DNA of 64,000 nt from Pelagomonas calceolata (lineage: Eukaryota > Sar > Pelagophyceae > Pelagomonadales > Pelagomonadaceae): assembly GCA_918797485.1 (NCBI GenBank), contig CAKKNE010000001.1, positions 4,154,001 through 4,218,000 of the forward strand. The letters run 5' to 3'. Position 1 is the stretch's first letter. Every line of letters starts with the position of its first letter. The notes under the pieces were generated by a model, which saw only the letters and a program-made list of their open reading frames with translations, had not been told where the DNA came from and did no database searches. The translations under genes and the position numbers were made by a program. Shown piece after piece: positions 2,485 to 63,820 of the stretch.

Positions 2485-5400
2485 ATGACCGTCGACGTCC
2501 CCACGCAATTAAGGGAGCTCGCCGAGGTCGGTTCACTAAGTTTCCAGCGAAGCGCGGACAGTCCCGTGCGGACGGAGTTTCCCAAGCTCGCCGCGCGGCT
2601 ACTCGCGAAAAGAGAAGCCCACGACGCCGCGATCCAGAGCTTTGCGGAAAAGTTGACGTTGATTTCCGACGGTATTGAAATAGACGTGAAGACGGCGAGC
2701 GATGGCGTCGTCGACGCGCTGGAAGCGGTTGATCAACAGACTGCTGCGATCTTCGAGGAGCTCAACCGAGATGAGTTACTAGTGACGAAGGACGCTTCTT
2801 ACTTAACAGAGACCTGGGAGGCCATCGAGGGGACGCTCAAGGATCGGCATGCCGTCATCCGAGACTTCGGGGCGCGCCTCGAGGGCCTTGAGCAGCAGAG
2901 AGCAAAGACGGCTGGTGGAGAACTGCGGAATTTGGTCGATACGCTGCTCAGGATCGCCTTCAAGTCTCCCGGAGAAATCGAACGAGTAGTGGAGGGCGAC
3001 GCCTTTGAGCTCAATGCGGTGATCATCGCGAATCGCAAGTCGCACGCGGAATTACTCGCGTTACTAGAGAAGAAGGATGTGGGTGTGGGTCTCGACGCCA
3101 TCGAGAAGTGGAGATTGAGGAGAGAAGCCTGGCGCCAGCTGCGCCACGATAGAGCAGTTAAAGAATTTTGGGAGGACCTCGAGTCGCAACAATTCGTGAA
3201 CCCTCCGGAAAGGAGTAAGAGGTTCGAGAAGATCCGAGCCGATCAGTTATCGAGTGATGAGCAACGTAGGAAGCTGATTCGTGAAGTGGAGGCGATGACC
3301 CTGCCGCAGTCGGCCAAAGCTTCCGAGGCGAAAACAAAATTTAAAGAAATTCATGCGAAGGAGGCCAACACGATCGTCAAGCATGAAAAAGCTTTAGATA
3401 AGCTTGTGATCAAGTCTCATGAGGCCGCCTTGTTGCGACGGGAAGATCTTAGACGAGAATTACATAGATATGGGGCACTCGCGGAGGAGCCTGAGTTACA
3501 TGAGTTCGCCGATGCTGTTGAGAGTATCGCGTTGGATCCGGAGCGGGAGGACTTCTTCCGGAGTGCTGGTGGGTTGAAACCTGAACTGAGGCAGTTGATC
3601 TCGGAATGTCGTCATGAGGACATCGTCTACGCTAGAGTACTAGACGAGGCCAAACGACGTTTACAAGTTGTGAGATGTGGTAGGGACCTCCATACGACGC
3701 TAGAGAAGCAGGGCAAGGGTTCGTTCCGAGACGCGCTCAAGGACACGTGTGAGAGGCTCAGAAAAGGCGGGCGGCCCGAGGTGCCTCCCCTACTCCCGAT
3801 CCTGGAGCAGCAGGTCGACCAGTTGCGAGCGGTCGAAGGTTTGGACGACTTACTCGTCTCGGAATTGAGTCGCGTGTCGGAGGACGTCCGCCAACTCATC
3901 GACGACATCGCTGATCAAAATGGTGAAATGAATGAGCGCAAGAGCATGGCCACGTCTCGCAAGAGTTCGAAGCGAGGCGCTACTACGGCCTACACTGGTT
4001 ATGAAGGTCCCGCGATTGATATGGTCGCCGTGCGGTCTGCTCAAAAACGAGTAGCCATGATGATGTGCGTGTGCGAGCTGGAGGAGGAACATATTTCTTT
4101 ATTAGGAGAAGTGCAGGACGCCTTAGAACAAAAAACGGTGTGCAATGTTGCCATCGACGAGGTCTGTACAAATGAATGCGAAGAAGTGATCGCCAAGCGC
4201 CACGAGGAGCACCTGGACCTGGCGAAGGAAGTCACACAGTACCTCGAGAAACAGTCTTCATCATTGTGCAAGGACGCCTGCCAGACGTGCGACTTCTACG
4301 AGCGCGTCGGTAAGGCCGTCGAGGCTAACCACAAAAACATAAGTGACATGGACGAGGCCATGGAGGACGACTTGTTTGATATCAAGGAAGATCAGCGCGT
4401 GAGGAACGAGGACACGGAAGAAGAATTGAGGCAGGCGTGCCACGACACGAGGCACGCGGCCGATGCCGATGCTTTGGAAATTGCATTTGCGAACGTGATC
4501 AAGCTGTTGACGGTCGTCGAAGACCAGTACCGGGACTACCAGCTGACGGCGCGTACTAAGGCCGAGGAGCACCCCGTCAACGATAGTAATGAAGCATTGA
4601 GGTTTGATGGGGTCGTACGTGCGTTGTTCGGGCTCGACGGGGAAGAAGGCTCAGATACGTATGTCGTTGGCGATGGTGCTCCTAGAACCGTGCGGCTTTC
4701 ACTGCCAGACTTAGTTAAGAGTGTATTAGCGTACGAGGAGCCCAAGGCCGAAGAGGAACCTCCTAAGGTCGCCATCGAAGGGGACGACGAGGAGGACGAG
4801 GACGAGGAGGAAGAAGCCGAGGAGGTGAACTGGTACGCCGAGGGCTTTGTCGAGTTGAGTGAGGAGGAGCGGAGGGAGCTGAAGGGGCGCACGCTCGAGA
4901 AGTACCTCGATGCTCGGGACGACGCCTTTACGCCGCTGGATGCCGCTACTAAGGCAACACTGTCCGAGGAGGACCTGGAGATCTACGAAGCCCTTGTGGA
5001 AGAAGTGGAACAACATCGGGCGGCGCGGGCATCCATCAGAGAACAAGGTGATGTCAGTGACACGCCGGTGGATGGGAACCAAGAGGTCTGCGTTTGCGAT
5101 GTGACGCTGCCGGAGTCGAGGTTGGTTGAATTATTAGATAAGTTAAGGGCCTCCGTCGTGATGGATATGGAGTCAAGGGCAGCAGCTAGGAAGGTCAAAA
5201 TACAAACGTTGACGGACGAGCGTCTCACGTCCTACACCGAGGAGCTCGAGGAAAGACTGAGGACGCACTGGCCCCGGAAAGGGCGGTCCGAAGTGTCCTT
5301 TCGGCAACCGAGAGAAGGTGAGTTGATAGCTCATCGACAGCGAAAAGAGCGACATTTACGAGTTGTACTACAGCGCGACCGCCTGCATAGCAAGGACTTC

Positions 5401-23461: not shown

Positions 23462-26205
23462 ATGGCCTTAGCAGCGGCGGCGGCGGCCATGAAGCTCAAG
23501 AACAAGGGTTCCGTCACGGTCCAAGTCGTCGTGAGGTGTCGACCCCTGAACAAGAAGGAGCTCGGCGAAGACCGGAAACCGATTATTAGTATAGACGAGA
23601 ACCAGGTGTCGATCGTCAAAGGCATCGGTAAAGACGGCCATATCATGAGTGAAGAAGAAAACAAAGCCACGAAGAAGTCTTTTACGTTTGACGCGGCGTA
23701 TGACGAGCAGTCGACGCAGAAACAGTTCTACGAGGAAAGTTGCTACCCCTTGGTCGAGAGCGTCATGGAGGGCTTTAACGGGACGATCTTCGCCTACGGC
23801 CAGACGGGCTGCGGCAAGACCTGGACCATGATGGGGCCGCCTTCACCTCTCGAACTGAGAGGTGTTATACCTTCGTCCTTCGACCACATCTTCGAGAATA
23901 TAAAAACTACCACAGATTGTGAATTCTTAGTACGGTGTTCTTACTTAGAAATTTATAATGAGGAGATCCGGGACTTATTGGGGGACGACCCGAAGGCGCG
24001 GTGCGAGCTCAAGGAGGACCCGTCGAAGGGTGTCTATGTTAAGGGTCTGTCCAATGTCGTGGTCAACGACGAGGCGACCATCAACAAGGTCATGGAGAAG
24101 GGCCTGAAGCATCGCACGACTGGGGCTACACTCATGAATGAAGGGTCTTCACGTAGTCATAGTATCTTCACCGTGGTCCTGGAAATGAATAGAAAAGATG
24201 AGGGTGGTAAAGACCATTTTACGATGGGGAAATTAAATCTCGTGGATTTAGCTGGTTCAGAAAGACAGTCGAAGACGGGCGCGTCGGGCGATCGCTTGAA
24301 AGAAGGCTGCAAGATCAATCTATCTCTATCAGCATTGGGTAACGTCATCAGTGCTTTGGTCGATGGCAAGGGCAAGCACATCCCCTACCGCGACTCAAAA
24401 CTAACGAGACTCCTCCAGGATTCACTAGGTGGGAACACGAAAACACTCATGATGGCCGCCGTGAGTCCCGCGGATTATAATTATGACGAAACTTTATCTA
24501 CCTTACGGTATGCTAATAGAGCCAAGAACATCAAGAACAAGCCCAAGATCAACGAAGATCCGAAGGATGCCATGTTGAGAGAATATAAGGCCCAGATTGA
24601 TCAGCTCAAAGCTATCCTCGAAGCGCAGGCGGCCGGCCAGCCGCTCGATGGGCGGTGGGCCGGCGAAGGGATGGAACAACCACCGGGCCAGGTCGTGCAC
24701 GTCCCGGGTCAGAACACCGTCGTGGAGCGCGTCGTCACGAAGGACGGCCCCGTGCGGATCTGTGTCGACCTTCACGCCAGTTGCACCCGACACACTGGTT
24801 GATTTCCGCACAGGTGCAGATCCAGCGAGTGGTAGAGAAGGAGGTGGTGGAAGTCGAGAAGATCGTCGAAAAGGAGAAAGTTGTCGAGAAAGTCGTCGTC
24901 CAGGAGAAAATTGTTAATGTGCTCAATGCCGAGGGTGAGGCGCTGACGGAGTACAATGCGGCGCTCGTGAATCAACGCGCGCAATTAGGAGAGCAGCTCG
25001 AGGGCCAGAAAGCAGCGACCCAAGCTGCCCAAAATGACGTGAGCGCGGTGATGGCCAAGCTCGCCGCGCTGCAATCACGCGTCTGTGGCTCGTCGCTGAA
25101 GCGGGGCGAAGCTGCTGATGACCAAGCGTTCGAGGAGGCTTTGAAGAGGAAGAAGGACAAAGAAAAACGCATCAAGAAGCGCCTCGAGAAGAAAAGACGA
25201 GCAGCTCAAGCTGCGGAGGAGGGCCGACTCGCGGCGGAAGCGGAACGGGAAGCGGTCGAGTTGGAGCTGCAGGAGGCGGCGTTGGAGATGGACGAGCGCG
25301 AGAGGGAGTTCCGGCGGGAGAAGAAGAAGCTGAAGCGGAAGATACTCCAGGGCCAGAACGAGATCGAGGATCTACACGACGAGTTCCAGCGCGAGCGCGA
25401 GATGCTGCAGGACAACGTGCGAGAAGCGAATAGGGACGCGCAGTTGTGGCGGCAAGTTTGTGAATTAGTCCTAGATAAGAACTTGGTGGATCGGGTCTGG
25501 CAGCGGTCGGAATTCAATGAGAGGGAGGACAAGTGGATCCTGCCCGAGATGCTCCGGGCGAAGCGGCAGTATCAAGATTTGTCGTGTCCGCCTTTGCCGG
25601 GCATGGGCCCGACGCCACCTGTGGAAGGGGGTGTCTTCGCGCGGCCGGCGTCGCGGTCGCCGCGCGCCGTGATGGGCCTCGCCGGGGCAGCTCGGCCGCC
25701 GTCGCAGCAGCCCGGCGTCGGTGGCCTCGCCGGCGCCGCGAGACCTCCATCATACTCGCCGCGGTTGGACGACTTCATGGACGCGCCGCGCGAGGAGTAC
25801 TCGCGGCCTTCCTCGAACGCGATCCCGTCGCGGCCGACGTCGTCGCGGCCGGGCTCGACGCGGCCTCATTCTAGACCGTTGTCTCGGGCCGGCGGCTCGC
25901 GGGGCGGCGACCCGGAGCAGCGGCGACGGCGGAAGAAGCGCGAGAAGGCGCCCGGCGGGCTTGCGGGCGCGGCGGTCGGCGGGCTCGCGGCGGCTGCCGT
26001 CGGCGGGCTCGCCGGGGCCGCCCAGGTCGGCGGGCTGGCCGCGGCGGCGTCGAAGCCTTCACAAAAGCCGCCGCGGCCGAAGAAGAAGGCTGCTGGTCTG
26101 GCGGGCGCGGCCGTCGGTGGCCTTGCTGGTGCGGCGCAGCGACCGGTGGGCGGCTTGGCGGGTGCGGCGGCGGCGAGCTACGACTACGATATCGCGTCGC
26201 CGTAG
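23462..26205 (+). CDS. Kinesin-2 type motor protein
   Basis: This 893-aa protein is spliced from 23462-24751 and 24814-26205. The motor domain (about residues 17-355) has the P-loop YGQTGCGKT, switch I NEGSSRSH and switch [27 protein letters not shown] and the neck [17 protein letters not shown] are typical of kinesin-2 (KIF3/KIF17), the plus-end motor of intraflagellar transport. A coiled coil spans about residues 430-650. The tail is a low-complexity array of about nine GLAGAA-like repeats. The start has the strong context AGCACCATGGCC. The 62-nt intron is an inserted introner-type element in phase 0; removing it restores [13 protein letters not shown]. Confidence 0.92.
24760..24813 (-). 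mobile_element. Introner-type element in the kinesin gene (54 bp)
   Basis: Ends are CTGTGTCGACC (decayed left end) and TTGATTTCCGCACAG. The 8 bp to its left, GTGCGGAT (24752-24759), match the 8 bp to its right, GTGCAGAT (24814-24821), at seven positions: a target-site duplication. The intron runs 24752-24813, so the left duplicate supplies the GT donor and the element supplies the CACAG acceptor. It is inverted relative to the gene and lacks the CACGCCATCGACGCGAC core. Confidence 0.85.
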
Positions 26206-46765: not shown

Positions 46766-49700
46766 ATGGCTGAAAGCAACGGCAAAAAACGCGCGCTCGT
46801 CGTGATCGACAGCGACGACGACGAAGCGCCGCTCGCGCCGTGGGTGCGGACGGTCTCAGACCAGGCCGAGGTCGTGGACATCATAGAGATCAAAGATGAA
46901 GAAGAAGACGACGACGACCTCTTCGAGAAGGAGATGGACGTGCAGTACGGCTCGTCGCCGTCGCGCGTCAAGAAAGAGAAGAAGCCGAAGCCCGACCCTT
47001 CGCCGGGCGGCCCCTCGGGCAGCGGCGGCGCGCCCCAAGGAGGCGCCGCGCCAGGAGCTCATGGTGCCGCCGCGCCGGCGCCCGCGCCCGCGGCCGCGCC
47101 GCCGGTCATCGGAGGGATGCCGACGGCCGCCGAGAAGACGGCCCATTTACTGACGTTGCCGGCGGGCGCGCGCGACCTGCAGCGCCTGCTGTGGCACATC
47201 GGCATCACGTTCAAGCTGCTGCCGCACCAGCCCGTCGCCGTGCGCATGGTCGCGGGCGTGGGCGACGATTACCCCAACCTCGCCACGAACGCGTCGCTCG
47301 ACGGCGCGCTCCTCAACGCGGCGCCGCCGACGAACCGCGGCGGACTCTTAGCCGACGTGATGGGCCTGGGCAAGACCGTCGAGGCGATCTGCGGCGCCGC
47401 GTTGCGCCAGGCCATCTGCGCGTCCAAGAACCTGCGGCCGCTGCCGGTCGTGATCGTGTCGCCGAACGTCTCCGTTCTCGACCAGTGGTCCGAGCACCTG
47501 TCGCGGGGGGGAGTCCCGCCGACGAGCGTCCTTCTCTACACGGGCCGCTTCCACGACCGCGTCAGAAAATACAATCGGCGCTGCCAGCCCGCGGGCGACG
47601 GCTCGGCGACGTGGGTCCTGTTGACGCGCCACTGTCTCATGAACGACGTGCAAGCGGCCATGGACGCCTTCTCGAAGGACGACGAGGTCGCACAAGTGTC
47701 ACCCCTGTTCCCGACGGCCGAGAAGGAGCTCCTCGAAGATCTGCGGGACCAGTACCTCGCGGCGAACGCGAAGCTCAAGGGCAAGAACACGCTGCGCCAG
47801 AAGGGCGAGGGCGTGCACCTGTGTGGAATCAACCAGTGAGTTAGGTTATCGACGTCGCGTCGATGGCGTAGGGCGTCCCGGGATTTTATTTCCACACAGG
47901 CGAGCACGATGTCGTGCGGCGCCTCATCGATGATTATTACCACAAGAACCTCGCCAACCCGCCCGTCGCCGTGATCCGAACGCTCATCATCGACGAGGCT
48001 CATTTCTTGAGGAACGCCGTGTCGTTCTGGGGCATCGGCGCTGCGCTCGCGGGCAACGGTGCCGAGCGCACGATCATGTGCACGGGCACGCCGTTCAACA
48101 ACGGCCCGCGCGACATGGCAGCTTTGCAGTCGTACGTCGACGCGTCGAGTCCGGCGGCCGAGGAGAAGTGGTGGAAGGAGGCGGTATCCGGGAAGGGCGG
48201 CCCCGAGATCGCGCGCGCCGTCCGCGACTGGCGCGAGAACGGCGGCATGGTGCGGCGCAACCTCGACGTTTTGACGACGCAGCTCCCACAGCTCGACGTG
48301 ACGACGGAGAACATTCTGTTGGATGATGAGGAGCTCTTCGCCTACCTGCCGCTCGAGGATTCGATCCTCGAGCTGCTGAAAAAGTTCGCCGAATGCAGCG
48401 ACGACGACAAGAAAGAAAAGCTGAAGCTCTTCCGCGTGATGATGAGCTTGATGGCGCTGATGCGAATGTGGGCCCGGCGTCGTCACGACTTCAGAGGCAT
48501 CGCCGTCGCGTCGATGGCGGTCCACGTCTCATAGTAGTTGCGGTCACATCTTACGTCATCGACAAGACGACTGCTCAGGAAGGGATAGTGATAGGGAAAC
48601 GCGCATCAGTAGGATGTTTCATTCTCCTCGAGGACGACACCACCGTGACCCTGGCAAAAAGCTTGATCGATTATGCCGACGGCGAGCCTCCAGATGCTTT
48701 GATCGCCGCGGCCGCGGCGCGCGGCGTGCCCTACGTGCCCCTCGAAGCGAGCTGCCCCCACTGCGATGAAGCGTTCGGTTCGGGTCGGGAGCGATTTGCG
48801 CGAGGCGCGGGCGCCACAATTTGCAGGCCTTGTCATACACGGTGGGGCACTGGAGACCCGCCGATCAACTCAGTGAGACGACCGGCCATGTGCCTGTGTT
48901 GCGGGGGCCCATTTCCACACAACCGTTATTACGCGGGGCCACACGGCCGCTACACCACATGCCTCTCGTGCGATACTCGCCGACAGCATGGCAAGACTGG
49001 TCCCGCCGAGCCGAAGGAGGCCTCCTACTGCCGCGACTGCGGCTGCGGGTCCGACGATGCACAGCTCCAGGAGCACCCGGACGGCGTCGTGCGCTGCGGC
49101 GCGTGCTCGTCACAGAAGCGTCTGGGCCGTCCACCTACCCCGGCGCGCGTCCGGCGATTCGGCGGCCCGACGCCAGCGAAGGCCCAGAAGCTTGAGAAGG
49201 CCGTCGCCGCGCGGAACCAGCAGATCGCGGAGTATTGCGCGAGCGCGGGGTTCGCGCTTGCAAGCGAGCAGCCCGATGGCGCGGCCGCGGCGCCCGCCGC
49301 CGCCGACGACGACGCGTCGGACTCCGGCGACGACGCGTCGGCGGGCGGCGCTGCGCGCCCGAAGTGGGTGCGGTGCGACGGCTGCGATAAGTGGCGCCGG
49401 CTGCCGTCCCATGTGGATGTTGACAGCCTGCCCCCGTGCGCGGCCCGCGTCCAGAATTTAGAGCTTCCGCACGTCATTCCCCACGCCATCGACGCAACGT
49501 CATCCTTCAATCCGTGTCCCCTCGATGTGTAGATGGCGCCGCGTTCCATCCCTCTCCGCGGCCGGCGTCGTCGCGCGGCCGCAAATCACGCGTCGCCGCC
49601 CGCGCAGGAGATGGTACTGCAGCATGAACGTCTGGAACCCGGAACGCGCGAGCTGCGACGCGCCCGACGACGCCGAGGCCGAGGCGCCGTCGCCCGCCGC

Positions 49701-53431: not shown

Positions 53432-55112
53432 CTATTCTGGCGGCCAGACCCACGAAGTCGCGCCCGTCTTCGTGTTGTAGTAGTAAGTATTCCCCGACGC
53501 TTCGTCGACGGCCGACGCCCAGTCCGCGACGACAATTTCAGCGGTCTCCGCCGCCGCCGCAACTGTTTCCGCCGCCGCCGCCGCAGCTCCACCAGTGAGC
53601 GTGAGGTCGTCTGTCGCCTTGATGCCTCCGCCCTGCGCCATCATTTTTCGGGCGATCTTGAGGACCTCGACTTGCGACCTATCTACTTTCACGTCGTTGA
53701 CCGCGCTCCAGTCGAGCGTGCGCAGCATTTCCTCGAGTTTTTCGGTGCCGATGTCGCCGAGCGTCTCCTCGTTTTGTGAATACACGAGCCCAGTCGGCAA
53801 GCCCTTCTGCGCCGCCTTCACCTGAGGCGTGCGGAGGATGTTGATCATAGGAATCGGTGACCGTCTTCCGTAATTGGCCGCAGCATCCGCCCCCGCGCGT
53901 TCGCCACCCTGCGTGGGGCATCACGTCGATGGCGTGGCGCGTGGCGCCATCGACGCGACGTGGACGTGGCACGCGATGCCAACGCGAACAACGCAAAGAT
54001 AATAAAGGACGCCGCAAGAGCACGTCTCGGAACACGTATTGAGGATGAAAGAAAACGAGCTGGATCTGGCCCTCGAAGCCCAATCCTTCGACCTTTGATT
54101 CCGTGGCCGATTGGAGGGCTTGCGTTAGTGCGTCGCCAAATTGCTCAAACGCGTCAAAGTTACTGGCCCAGTACGGATTTGTCATCAGGAGCAGCGACGT
54201 CGCGTGTCGAGGGTGGTCCTCGAGCCATTGCACCTCCTTCCAGAACCATTGGAAGCACGTCTCCGTATCGTCGGCACGAGTTACCTGTGTGGAAAGCAAC
54301 CAGTGAGTGATGTTGTCGCGTCGATGGCGTGGGGCGCCTGAAAATTTGATTTGATTTTCACACAGGTGCTAACGTCGTATCGTACGTCTCCTAGAGGTAA
54401 GCCGGCGCGGTCAGCCGACAGGCTAAAGGGGCAAATGCCCGCATCGCTCACGATTGCGTTCACCCAGTCCTTCGAGCACTTCAGGGCGTCGTCGTCGCCG
54501 AGGTCGTGCTGGATAGGACATTTATCCACCGGCGGCGCGGTCTCCGCGTCGAGCGCCTTGAGCCGCTCGCGCATCTCGGGGCTCAAGAAATCATCATCCT
54601 CGTCTTCGTCAGCCCACTCGTCCCACACGTCCGCGTTGGTCGACCGCGGCACGTTTTTTACGATGATGCTGTTAGCAGGGCCTGGCATCGCGTGGATGTG
54701 CGCTCCAAAGTTCCTGTGTGGAAACCAACCAGTGACATCAAGCCGTGCGCTGATGGGTGGGGCGCCCGAAATTTGATTTCCACGCTGTGGCTCGCTGCGA
54801 CGAGTCTTTGCAGACCTCGAGATGCTCGAACAAGGCTTGGAAGGTCTGCGGCCGCTTCAAGTCTTCGCAGTTCGGGAAATACATCGCTCGGAAGTCTCCG
54901 GGCGGCGGCGGGTTCGCAAGGACTTGCCAAAGCTCGGCAAGAGCGCCGGAGATAGACGTCGTCTCGCTGAAAATCTCTTTTTCGTCTGTGCTGGACTCAG
55001 TCTCGATGACGTGGAGCGGCGCCGCGCGCCGCGGCGGCACGGCCGGTGCCAAAAGAGCATTAGCAGTGGTAGCTGCACACAGCAGCCCAAGGATTACTCG
55101 AGGCCGCGCCAT
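53432..55112 (-). CDS. DUF1415 domain plus WW domain protein, plastid-type presequence
   Basis: This 468-aa protein is spliced from 55112-54784, 54713-54374, 54284-54024 and 53908-53432, with phases 2, 0 and 0; a GC donor at 54795 is an equally framed alternative for the first junction and would give 464 aa. It starts MARPRVILGLLCAATTANAL, a signal peptide followed by LAPAVPPRR, as in heterokont plastid proteins. DUF1415 spans about residues 180-390: WVNAIVSDAGICPFSLSADR, GDVRYDVTRADDTETC and the closing ANYGRRSPIPMINILR. The C-terminus is a WW domain, DWASAVDEASGNTYYYN then TGATSWVWPP. WW domains bind Pro-rich ligands; DUF1415 is uncharacterised. All three introns carry introner-type sequence. 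Confidence 0.8.
53909..54023 (-). repeat. Intron with two opposed core modules (115 bp)
   Basis: In gene sense the donor is GTGCTC and the acceptor CACGCAG. GTCGCGTCGATGGCG is followed within 15 bp by CACGCCATCGACGTGA, its near-inverse, giving a hairpin. Terminal repeats are absent. The phase 0 junction joins QYVFRD to GGERAGAD, matching the DUF1415 pattern. Confidence 0.7.
54285..54365 (+). mobile_element. Introner-type element, DUF1415 gene intron 2 (81 bp)
   Basis: It starts CTGTGTGGAAAGCAACCAGTG in plus orientation, carries GTCGCGTCGATGGCGTGG, and ends TTTGATTTTCACACAG. It is inverted relative to the minus-strand gene. The intron is 54285-54373; its donor GTTAGC starts exactly 8 nt outside the element. 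The 8-nt flanks agree at only three positions. Confidence 0.8.
54714..54787 (+). mobile_element. Introner-type element, DUF1415 gene intron 1 (74 bp)
   Basis: It starts CTGTGTGGAAACCAACCAGTG and ends TTGATTTCCACGCTG. The core has decayed to GCTGATGGGTGGGGCGCCC. It is inverted relative to the gene. Two in-frame donors exist: GTGG at 54783, and GC 8 nt outside the element at 54795, 12 nt apart. Confidence 0.78.
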
Positions 55113-56413: not shown

Positions 56414-57630
56414 TTATGATTTACGCCGCTTCAGGAATGTACCTGCTTGCAATTCCCGGTATGCCTCGTCAATCTCCCAATCGTAATTCATCACGATCGG
56501 CCCGCCCATCGCCACGGGCTCGCGCAGCCGCTCGCCGACGAGCAGCAGCACGTCGCTTTCTCCGCGTGCCGCGTTCGTGCACGAGATCGCGTCCGCGCCG
56601 CTCGCAAAGCCGCAGGACTCGCCGGCCTTTACGGTGACCTGTCCCCCGCCAGGCCCGGGTACGGTGACCTGGCCCTCGCGACAGTACAGCGAACAAGAGG
56701 AGTCGGCACCGACCTTTGGCGCCCACTTTCCACCGGCCGGAATCCAGGCGTGCAAGACCTCAGCGCGCGGCCGCTGGTTGGGCGTTGCGCCCTCGCCGTC
56801 GGAGGCCGCAGCGACGATATTTTCGTCAAGCACAGTGCGTATACGCGTCCCGTCGACAACTTCCTCGTGCCACGGCGCGCCGTGCGCCGCGCCGAGGTAT
56901 CGAATAGAAGGCGGATCGAACTTCTGCGAGGCTGGCAAATTGACCCAGACCTGAAAGAGCTCGATGCTCGTCCTTCGCTCGTCGCTCGTCTCCCAAAATT
57001 CCTCGTGCTGGGCGCCCGAGCCGGTTCTCATCCATTGCGCACTTCCCCCTCGATAGGTCTTGGACCCGCCCAGGCTATCACGGTGGCGAAAGCCGTCGGA
57101 GCCGTCTAGCACATATGTGAGAATGTCAAAACCGCGGTGCGGATGCATCGAGAAGCCCTGTGTGGAAATCACATTTCGGGCGCCCCACGCCATCGACGCG
57201 ATATTTTCTCCGTAGCTCACTGGTTGATTTCCACACAGCTCTCGACCTCCACATCTATGTAGGGCAGCCCCGTGGCCTTCCCGAAGGCTCGGAACGGCCC
57301 CCGCAGCGGGTCCCGCGGGTCGAACCAATGTTTGTGATGCGCGACCAGCAAGAACGGGTCCGCGTTCGGCAGGCCCATCGGAATTACGCGCCCACCAGCC
57401 CAAGAAGGCCAGACAGGAATGCGGGGCCACTGCTGTACGTCTCCGGCGCGGCGCGAGGCCGTCTTCTGGGAAGCGGAGGCTGCTACGGGCGCCGCGGCCG
57501 TCAGCGCGGCGCCCGTCGCAGTCGCAGCATCTCTCCGAGTGAACGTCCCAGGGTTAATATCCGGGAGCTTCAACCACTGCGAGAGGGCTGCGGCCTGCGC
57601 GGCGACGGCTAGCAGAGCAAAGCATGGCAT
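56414..57630 (-). CDS. Pirin-family protein with signal peptide and Tat-like lumen signal
   Basis: This 375-aa protein is spliced from 57630-57247 and 57157-56414 (phase 0). The cupin core shows PNADPFLLVAHHKHWFDP, then GFSMHPHRGFDILTYVLDG and DSLGGSKTYRGGSAQWMRTG, the pirin N-terminal domain with its metal-binding His pair and Glu (AQHEEFWE). A pirin C-terminal domain follows. Pirins are Fe-dependent cupins, some with quercetinase activity. The N-terminus is a signal peptide, then FTRRDAATATGAAL and AAAPVAASA: twin arginine, hydrophobic stretch and AxA, like a thylakoid-lumen signal. Splicing joins PYIDVE to GFSMHPHRG. Confidence 0.87.
57158..57238 (-). mobile_element. Introner-type element in the pirin gene (81 bp)
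   Basis: In gene sense it starts CTGTGTGGAAATCAACCAGTG, holds ATCGCGTCGATGGCGTGG, and ends ATGTGATTTCCACACAG: the most intact copy, inserted in the forward orientation. The intron is 57158-57246, with donor GTCGAG 8 nt outside the element. The flanking 8-mers no longer match. Confidence 0.88.
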
Positions 57631-58003: not shown

Positions 58004-58571
58004 ATGCTAGCCTGCCGCGCCGCAGCGCGGCGCCCGCAACTCTTGTGGCCATCGATGGCGGCGCGTCGCGCCATCTCCTTGGGCCCTCGCCGCCCGCCGG
58101 CGCTCCGCCGCACCTTGGGCGCCGCCCTGGCGCCGCGCCGCCCGCCGGCGCTCCTCGCGCGCCGCGCCGCAACCACGAAAACGACGACGGGCATAGTAGG
58201 TCTCCCTGTCGACCCGCATGCCCGCGAGACCTTGATCGCCCTCAACGAGCAGCTCCTGGACGAAATTAAACAAGTACCGGAAGGGGCCGAGTACCGCAAG
58301 TCTGTAGAGGCGACCTGCAACTACCGACTCAAGTGCCTGCGCGAGAACGAGGACGAGGCGACGCTCGAAGAGCTCATCGGCATGGGGCAACTGGAGGAGC
58401 TCATCGAGTCGCAGACGGAGGAGCTGGGCGTCCTCCGCATGTACGTGGCTGTGTGGAAATCAAAATTTACGGCGCGTTTGACACACTGATTGATTTCCAC
58501 ACAGGTACGTGGCCGAGGAGATGTGGAAGGTCATCGCGGAGCTAGACACCCCGGAAGTGAAGCTCGACTGA
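58004..58571 (+). CDS. NDUFA5: NDUFA5-type subunit of mitochondrial complex I
   Basis: This 167-aa protein is spliced from 58004-58440 and 58505-58571. The first about 65 residues are Arg/Ala/Pro-rich without acids, a mitochondrial targeting peptide. The mature part matches NDUFA5 (29.9-kDa / B13 subunit): TTGIVGLPVDPHARETLIAL, EIKQVPEGAEYRKSVEATCN and GQLEELIESQTEELGVLRMY. The subunit belongs to the matrix arm of NADH:ubiquinone oxidoreductase. Removing the 64-nt intron restores RMYVAEEMW. The stop lies 14 bp from the stop of the convergent membrane-protein gene. Confidence 0.92.
58449..58504 (-). mobile_element. Introner-type element in NDUFA5 with perfect 8-bp duplication (56 bp)
   Basis: CTGTGTGGAAATCAA at the left and TTGATTTCCACACAG at the right are perfect 15-bp inverted repeats. 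GTACGTGG occurs directly on both sides (58441-58448 and 58505-58512). The intron is 58441-58504, so the left duplicate gives the donor GTACGT and the element gives the acceptor. The central core is absent. It looks recent. Confidence 0.95.
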
Positions 58572-62972: not shown

Positions 62973-63820
62973 ATGCGGCGCACTGGCATCATCCTCGCGA
63001 CAGCATTGGGCGCCTGCAATGCGTTGACGGCTTACCAGCGGTTGACAGGCGCGACGGTGCTCTCGGTCGCGGACCGGCGGCCGGTCGAGCTGACGTCGAC
63101 GTGGCAAGGTAACGAGCGCGTCGTCGTCGAGTTCCTGCGACACTTCGGGTGAGTGTTCTGCTGGGAGCGTGCCGTGCAGTTAAGGCGCGACGCGCTCCCA
63201 GCACTCGAGAAGAATAACATCAAGCTGGCTGTGGTAGGAATCGGTTCCCTCGACTCCGGCGAGACGTTCGCATCTCGCACGGAGTTCCCGAAGTCTATGC
63301 TCTACGTCGACGATTCTGACGAGTCCGAGGCGTATCGCGCCGCGGGGACTCGGAACACGAAGCGGAAGCCTGACGGGAAAGCTGACTTCGAGGGCATCGG
63401 CTCGATGTGGTCGCAAGCCACGAACGACGCGCTCAAGGAGCGCGGTAAGAAGGACCTCGACGCCATCACCGGCTCGCTCTTCAAGCCCGGCATGTGTCAG
63501 TGTGTTTACGCCATCGCCGCGACTCACAGACACGCAAACCGCAGGCATCTATACGCCACTCATGCCGAAAGGCTCGACGATGACTCGATCCATGGAGAAG
63601 ACGATGGTCCAGGGCGGCTCGTTCGTCTTCGAGGGCGACACCGTTTGCGCCAGTGTCCTTCCATGAATCCCCACCGGCACGCCGTCGCCGCGGTCGCGTC
63701 GCGTCGATGGCGTGGAGCGAGTCGCGTGCTACCGCGCAGGTCCTCTTCGAGCACTACGACGAGTCCTCGGGCGCGCACGCCGGGATCGACGACATTCTCA
63801 AGGCGGCCGGCGCCGCGTAG
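62973..63820 (+). CDS. SELENOU: Selenoprotein U (PRXL2 / AhpC-TSA2 family) with in-frame TGA as selenocysteine
   Basis: This 237-aa protein is spliced from 62973-63495, 63545-63654 and 63740-63820. It is a thioredoxin-fold, peroxiredoxin-like protein. The active site reads VVVEFLRHFG-U-VFCWERA, where U is TGA 63150-63152 at residue 60, giving the U-x-x-C motif of selenoprotein U in place of C-x-x-C. Homology continues in the same frame on both sides. KLAVVGIGSLDSGETF, YTPLMPKGSTMTRSMEK and GGSFVFEGD fit the family. The N-terminus MRRTGIILATALGACNAL is a signal peptide, so the protein is plastid, ER or secreted. A SECIS element follows the stop. Splicing out the TGA as an intron would give an immediate TAA. 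Confidence 0.9.
63655..63739 (+). repeat. Intron with core module, selenoprotein intron 2 (85 bp)
   Basis: Donor GTCCTTCC resembles the first bases of the next exon, GTCCTCTT (five of eight identical). It contains CACGCCGTCGCCGCGGTCGC and CGCGTCGATGGCGTGGAG. Acceptor CGCGCAG. The first intron (63496-63544, 49 bp) also holds TACGCCATCGCCGCGAC. Confidence 0.68.

Follow-up and report, generated by a model that had tools for sequence, protein, structure and literature searches.

The 64,000-nt window of Pelagomonas calceolata DNA analysed here (the whole stretch, called the window throughout) carries an NDUFA5-like gene whose coding sequence is split by a short stretch with repeated flanks, which raises the question of whether a mobile element has landed in this gene and become an intron. 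The initial annotation had described an element of 56 bp, its 15-bp inverted ends matching perfectly, between two identical 8-mers, and this structure proved right to the base at positions 58441-58512 (Table 1). The element starts with CTGTGTGGAAATCAA and ends with the exact reverse complement of CTGTGTGGAAATCAA. Removal of positions 58441-58504 leaves a coding sequence of 504 nt (58004-58440 joined to 58505-58571) that encodes 167 aa from a putative start codon, and retention of the same positions leads to a stop codon at 58487. From the residues TTGIVG onward, the joined product matched the Pfam family ETC_C1_NDUFA5 with 74.4 bits, the domain match stopping before the splice junction; the arginine-rich leader encoded by exon 1 is presumably of mitochondrial type. 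We consider it very probable that the interruption is an introner, that is, a non-autonomous, MITE-like DNA transposon that inserted into the NDUFA5 coding sequence with an 8-bp target-site duplication (TSD) and is removed as a spliceosomal intron.

Table 1 Features of the NDUFA5-like gene, its inserted element and the other two-ended copies of the family. Fractions in the last column give the matches between the donor-side and exon-side 8-mers.
Feature	Coordinates	Strand	Description
Exon 1, NDUFA5-like gene (complex I B13 subunit)	58004-58440	+	start codon inferred
Left TSD copy	58441-58448	+	GTACGTGG; predicted to give the 5' splice site GTACGT
Introner/MITE	58449-58504	+	56 bp, perfect 15-bp terminal inverted repeats (TIRs); 3' end CACAG, predicted 3' splice site
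Alternative in-frame donor inside the TIR	58453-58458	+	CTGT/GTGGAA; +12 nt (4 aa); disfavoured by homology
Right TSD copy	58505-58512	+	GTACGTGG; start of exon 2
Exon 2, NDUFA5-like gene	58505-58571	+	stop codon 58569-58571
Copy D	24752-24813	+	donor side GTGCGGAT, element 24760-24813 (54 bp), exon side GTGCAGAT (7/8); frame of kinesin gene
Copy E	47811-47899	+	donor side GCGTGCAC, element 47819-47899 (81 bp), exon side GCGAGCAC (7/8); GC-AG intron, frame of SNF2-related gene
Copy A	54285-54373	-	donor side GTTAGCAC, element 54285-54365 (81 bp), exon side GTAACTCG (3/8); DUF1415 gene
Copy B	54714-54795	-	donor side GCGAGCCA, element 54714-54787 (74 bp), exon side GAACTTTG (1/8); open host frame
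Copy C	57158-57246	-	donor side GTCGAGAG, element 57158-57238 (81 bp), exon side GGCTTCTC (2/8); pirin gene
Copy on contig L001	1432-1539		TSD GTCGGCCG (8/8); kinase-like gene

The ends of the element are far more frequent in the window than in shuffled sequence. The 15-mer CTGTGTGGAAATCAA occurred 10 times at up to three mismatches, whereas 100 dinucleotide shuffles of the window averaged 0.50 and none of them reached 10. A scan for element lengths of 40-259 with identical 8-bp flanks and at least 9/12 matching inverted ends gave five structures, and 12/12 was found only at 58449-58504. A second scan (flanks of at least 7/8, first four end bases exact, up to three mismatches in the 15-bp ends, 40-150 bp) returned six structures in the real window and none in each of two mononucleotide shuffles; two of the six, at 58449 and 47819, belong to the element family of 58449, and the other four, located in G+C-rich stretches, were taken as low-complexity background. 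The G+C content of the window is 63.7%, and an excerpt of PMC9481584 gives 63% for Pelagomonas calceolata and 67.4% for A. anophagefferens. The predicted RNA fold of the intron 58441-58504 pairs its TIRs (z = -3.62, with 0/200 shuffles as good); the folds of the other five window copies were weaker (z from -0.87 to -2.36), and that of copy D lacked end-to-end TIR pairing.

The family comprises seven two-ended copies, of which the window contains six and a separate contig, L001, the seventh (Table 1), with 0 to 6 mismatches among the 15 positions of the TIR arms. For copy C, a weaker left end at 57115 (5 mismatches) was dropped in favour of 57158. The common ends stand at different positions of NDUFA5, kinesin, SNF2-related, DUF1415, pirin and kinase-like genes and one unnamed gene; the host of copy B is possibly the DUF1415 gene of copy A again. 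When the copies were aligned head to tail by eye, CTGTGTGGAAATCAACCAGTG-like heads were found in common, interrupted in the L001 copy, and a core around TCGCGTCGATGGCGTGGGGCGCCCGAAA was common to five of the seven. Three copies lie head first and four tail first with respect to their genes, the NDUFA5 element being tail first in its own gene relative to the copies at 47819 and 57158. The predicted introns of the family are 62-116 nt long.

If these elements are spliced out by one rule, their borders should agree across the copies. In all seven, the stretch to be excised starts with GT (five copies) or GC (two copies) exactly 8 nt upstream of the TIR and ends with CAG. Read in the opposite direction, GT or GC stood at that place in 1/7 copies, and the chance of 7/7 is 5e-6 at the dinucleotide frequencies of the window; the orientation of copy B was picked from the open frame alone. 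The host frame was open after excision in 7/7 copies and ran into a stop upon retention in 7/7, the full CDS being used in this test for 58449, since exon 2 soon reaches the natural stop. For L001 and copies A, B and C, openness of the frame is of little weight as a test: with 120-nt flanks, the L001 host frame was open at all offsets between 0 and 30 and that of copy A at two of three phases, a second upstream frame would join as well in copies B and C, and copy B has a further in-frame GT, a possible donor, 6 nt more upstream.

Domain matches offer a second view of the joined readings. Those of NDUFA5, DUF1415, pirin and the kinase-like gene of L001 matched Pfam, and in the last of these an APH/EcKL kinase-like domain spans the junction. 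The joined pieces of copies D, E and B gave no Pfam match; the host frame of copy D continues from a kinesin domain that lies upstream of it, and that of copy E from an SNF2-related one. Copy C sits in a 338-aa minus-strand ORF (56414-57430) that has matches to Pirin and Pirin_C and whose frame stays open across the element. Here we prefer excision over the read-through ORF, because the pirin part then joins a different, putative upstream frame ending ...GLPYIDVE, which we take to be pirin-like. In comparisons with 12 PDB pirins, no alignment began before residue 42, which lies some five residues ahead of the junction of copy C.

TIRs with a TSD are typical of MITEs in general, and splice signals might be coincidental in a plain MITE insertion, either one disrupting the gene or one present as a rare allele. 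However, all seven interrupted frames reopen by a single excision rule (8 nt plus the element, ending CAG), and the joined reading contains a domain match in four of the seven, so we regard coincidental signals as extremely improbable. The initial reading of an introner-type element is upheld by the TIRs, the 8-bp TSD, the several copies, the candidate GT donor in the TSD, the candidate CACAG acceptor in the TIR and the restoration of a recognisable protein.

A further question is which donor the NDUFA5 intron would use. It had been proposed that splicing from the left GTACGT to the CACAG of the element removes exactly the element plus one duplicate and restores the frame. Such an excision does so, but the reading frame alone does not single out this donor, because the GT at 58453 (element position 5) restores the frame too, with 12 additional nucleotides. 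An introner spliced from this donor inside the TIR would leave four extra residues in the protein, encoded by 8 nt from the TSD and 4 nt from the element, and the product stays in frame because 8 + 4 = 12. All seven copies carry a GT in their 5' arm at element position 5. In addition, an excerpt of PMC9860276 contains an example at 3289-3365, which is 77 nt if the ends are inclusive and equals 81 - 4, and three of the copies here are 81 bp, although this agreement in length may be a coincidence.

Homology points the other way. Both NDUFA5 products, from precise excision and with 12 additional nucleotides, were compared with PDB sequences, of which 22 matched, many of them close orthologues. 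The results showed that the precise product outscored the longer one in 22/22 of these matches (best 72.1 versus 69.4 bits), and its best matching stretch extended past the junction in 21/22, versus 3/22 for the longer product. The four printed alignments of the precise product, all to distant NDUFA5 proteins, cross the junction without a gap there, up to a shared tryptophan, and the three printed alignments of the longer product stop just short of it. The differences in bits are not wholly due to the junction, because the match to 7zm7, which ends at residue 53, far from the junction, drops by 3 bits. The DUF1415 protein of copy A scored 43.3 bits after precise excision and 36.4 bits with the 12-nt addition; the pirin of copy C scored 56.1 bits with either donor, and the two were not told apart there. 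Moreover, a donor inside the TIR does not require the GT or GC found at -8 in 7/7 copies. Use of the in-TIR donor at NDUFA5 is thus quite improbable, and the homology of NDUFA5 favours the TSD donor (58441) over that at 58453. The proteins continue across the junction in both NDUFA5 and DUF1415, and we infer that the stretch 58441-58504 itself is spliced out.

With the TSD as the likely source of the donor, the events at this locus can be proposed as follows. A short DNA transposon would have landed in the NDUFA5 coding sequence and produced the 8-bp duplication on both sides; the left TSD copy, starting with GT, would act as the donor, and the 3' TIR, ending TTGATTTCCACACAG, as the acceptor. 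The element may also supply a short run of pyrimidines and a branch-point-like TTGAT, whose role as a branch point is presumed. Since each end is an inverted copy of the other, an acceptor would be presented in either insertion orientation, and both orientations were found among the copies. Excision of one TSD copy plus the element would bring back the coding sequence that existed before the insertion, and the intron would have been formed in one step. Mobilisation would have been brought about by an unseen transposase; a Pfam search with 28 ORFs, out of 52 listed for the window at a length of at least 250 aa, gave no transposase match, and Rfam gave no match at gathering thresholds. TSDs of 8 bp fit several transposon superfamilies (hAT, P). 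A superfamily assignment was attempted and given up, the CTGTG ends fitting none that could be named with confidence.

The same mechanism would leave duplicated 8-mers at the other copies, as the initial annotation had anticipated. They were found at three of the six (8/8 on L001 and 7/8 at 24752 and 47811) and were missing from the remaining three, copies A, C and B, with matches of 3/8, 2/8 and 1/8, respectively; the NDUFA5 copy itself matches 8/8. In copies A, B and C, which were grouped after the data were seen, the TIR arms differ at 6/45 positions and the TSD at 18/24 (Fisher p = 5e-7). Copy D has 6/15 arm mismatches and yet a TSD match of 7/8. Age alone therefore does not explain the TSD mismatch, because the ends of A, B and C are well kept while the more diverged D keeps 7/8.

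These data leave room for a mixed origin of the family, in which the TSD-bearing copies arose by DNA transposition and copies A, B and C moved as whole introns (the 8-nt donor segment plus the element), so that their donor 8-mer would stem from the source locus; reverse splicing of excised intron RNA is one example of such movement. Such an origin would account for a GT or GC that stands in A, B and C exactly 8 nt, the TSD length, upstream of the TIR within an 8-mer unlike the exon, and for a TIR decay too small to match the TSD mismatch. On the other hand, it depends on three copies, one of which has an alternative donor and no homology support; no source locus was identified, and imprecise insertion or repair could equally have erased the TSD identity. 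We consider the mixed origin unlikely, and three copies are too few to decide among whole-intron movement, imprecise insertion and repair for the TSD-less members. For the NDUFA5 element, insertion of a DNA transposon is the preferred reading.

The copy outside the window was found by an exact 20-mer scan of GTDB contigs, which gave a single match, contig NZGT01000054.1 (L001), filed as Spirochaeta sp. MED672; the same 20-mer had 0 matches in viral contigs. An exact paired-TIR pattern had 0 matches in both viral and GTDB contigs, its gap of 20-50 restricting it to perfect 14-bp ends and element lengths of 48-78 bp, so that 81-bp or decayed copies would escape it. L001 is probably eukaryotic, and probably algal, contamination in a Spirochaeta MAG, because it contains the kinase-like gene whose reading is joined across its element copy, as well as a biotin carboxylase behind a leader, which we take to be of plastid type. 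It shares 20 matches of 19-69 nt with the window at 80-100% identity, mostly these elements and other short repeats, and is therefore taken as belonging to the same or a related species. By eye, L001 also contains a single-ended element copy at 2254-2397 with two occurrences of the core motif, flanked by a pair of exons that are apparently paralogous and lie on opposite strands; having one TIR (2383-2397) and no other end that could be found, it was excluded from all counts.

Some further features of the window were observed. A 16-bp motif, CGCGTCGATGGCGTGG, occurs 10 times at up to one mismatch and is also repeated in L001. Three of its occurrences in the window lie within copies of the family (47856, 54317 and 57185), and seven lie outside the CTGTGTGG-ended elements (27861, 29056, 29092, 45397, 49481, 53922 and 63700); the motif may represent the core of other introner or MITE families. 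At about 63620-63735, an intron-like stretch with the CGCGTCGATGGCGTGG core and without CTGTGTGG ends apparently splits a redoxin-like frame, as judged by eye. The window also encodes a DUF4455/DUF4456 protein, which is presumably cilium-related and would fit a flagellated alga.

The intron-making mechanism proposed for NDUFA5 is already known, and the insertion is a clear further example of it. Huff, Zilberman and Roy are said to have described in 2016 that the introners of Aureococcus anophagefferens and Micromonas pusilla are short non-autonomous DNA transposons with one splice site in the element and the other from the duplicated target, the coding sequence being restored precisely; judged by this description, the family here resembles these introners in its candidate splice sites, one element-borne and the other co-opted from the TSD. 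An excerpt of PMC9860276 likewise describes a mechanism with the 3' splice site from the element and the 5' splice site from the TSD, and its methods allow for insertion in the opposite orientation. In the portion of PMC7789003 that deals with them, the elements of A. anophagefferens always have direct repeats, canonical splice motifs and TIRs that do not vary in length, whereas two of the seven copies here would use GC donors; the characteristic length of A. anophagefferens introners in the excerpt of PMC9481584 is about 210 bp, in contrast to introns of 62-116 nt here.

Two systems in the excerpt of PMC9860276 come close. Introner family 4 of Aureococcus sp. (TARA_AOS_82_MAG_00129; Fig. 2F of that paper) has an 8-bp TSD, as here, and a donor 4 bp inside the element, such as is present here too; in family 4, however, this in-element donor is reported to be used and to add four residues, whereas in our case the homology speaks for the TSD donor, which adds no residues. 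Going by its description alone, the family 4 example (3289-3365, 8-bp TSD, 4 bp of the element retained) may be the same family as that found here. The introners of Symbiodinium microadriaticum (Fig. 2B of that paper) share with ours the TIRs, the 3' splice site in the element and the 5' splice site from the TSD, but their TSD is 4 bp instead of 8. Amoebophrya introner elements, in the excerpt of PMC7789003, are similar in having hairpin-capable inverted repeats (8-20 nt) and direct repeats at the exon/intron borders, and differ in the length of these direct repeats (3-5 nt) and in their non-canonical introns.

Combining the donor and TSD observations, one may imagine a frame-safe way of making introns with two routes of spreading, in which the TIR donor CTGT/GTGG is held in reserve 12 nt from the TSD donor and copies A, B and C moved later as whole introns without a TSD. 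Although we give this combination little credence, it would mean that an insertion with an 8-bp TSD is spliceable in frame even where the target has no GT, the price being four additional residues. The contrast between TSD-bearing and TSD-less copies within one family provides a concrete test of whether introners spread as DNA transposons only or as whole introns too. The NDUFA5 insertion itself is a clean one-step case, with TSD and TIRs undecayed, a protein that can be aligned across the junction and splicing predicted from these features, and it bears on the long-standing question of intron gain.
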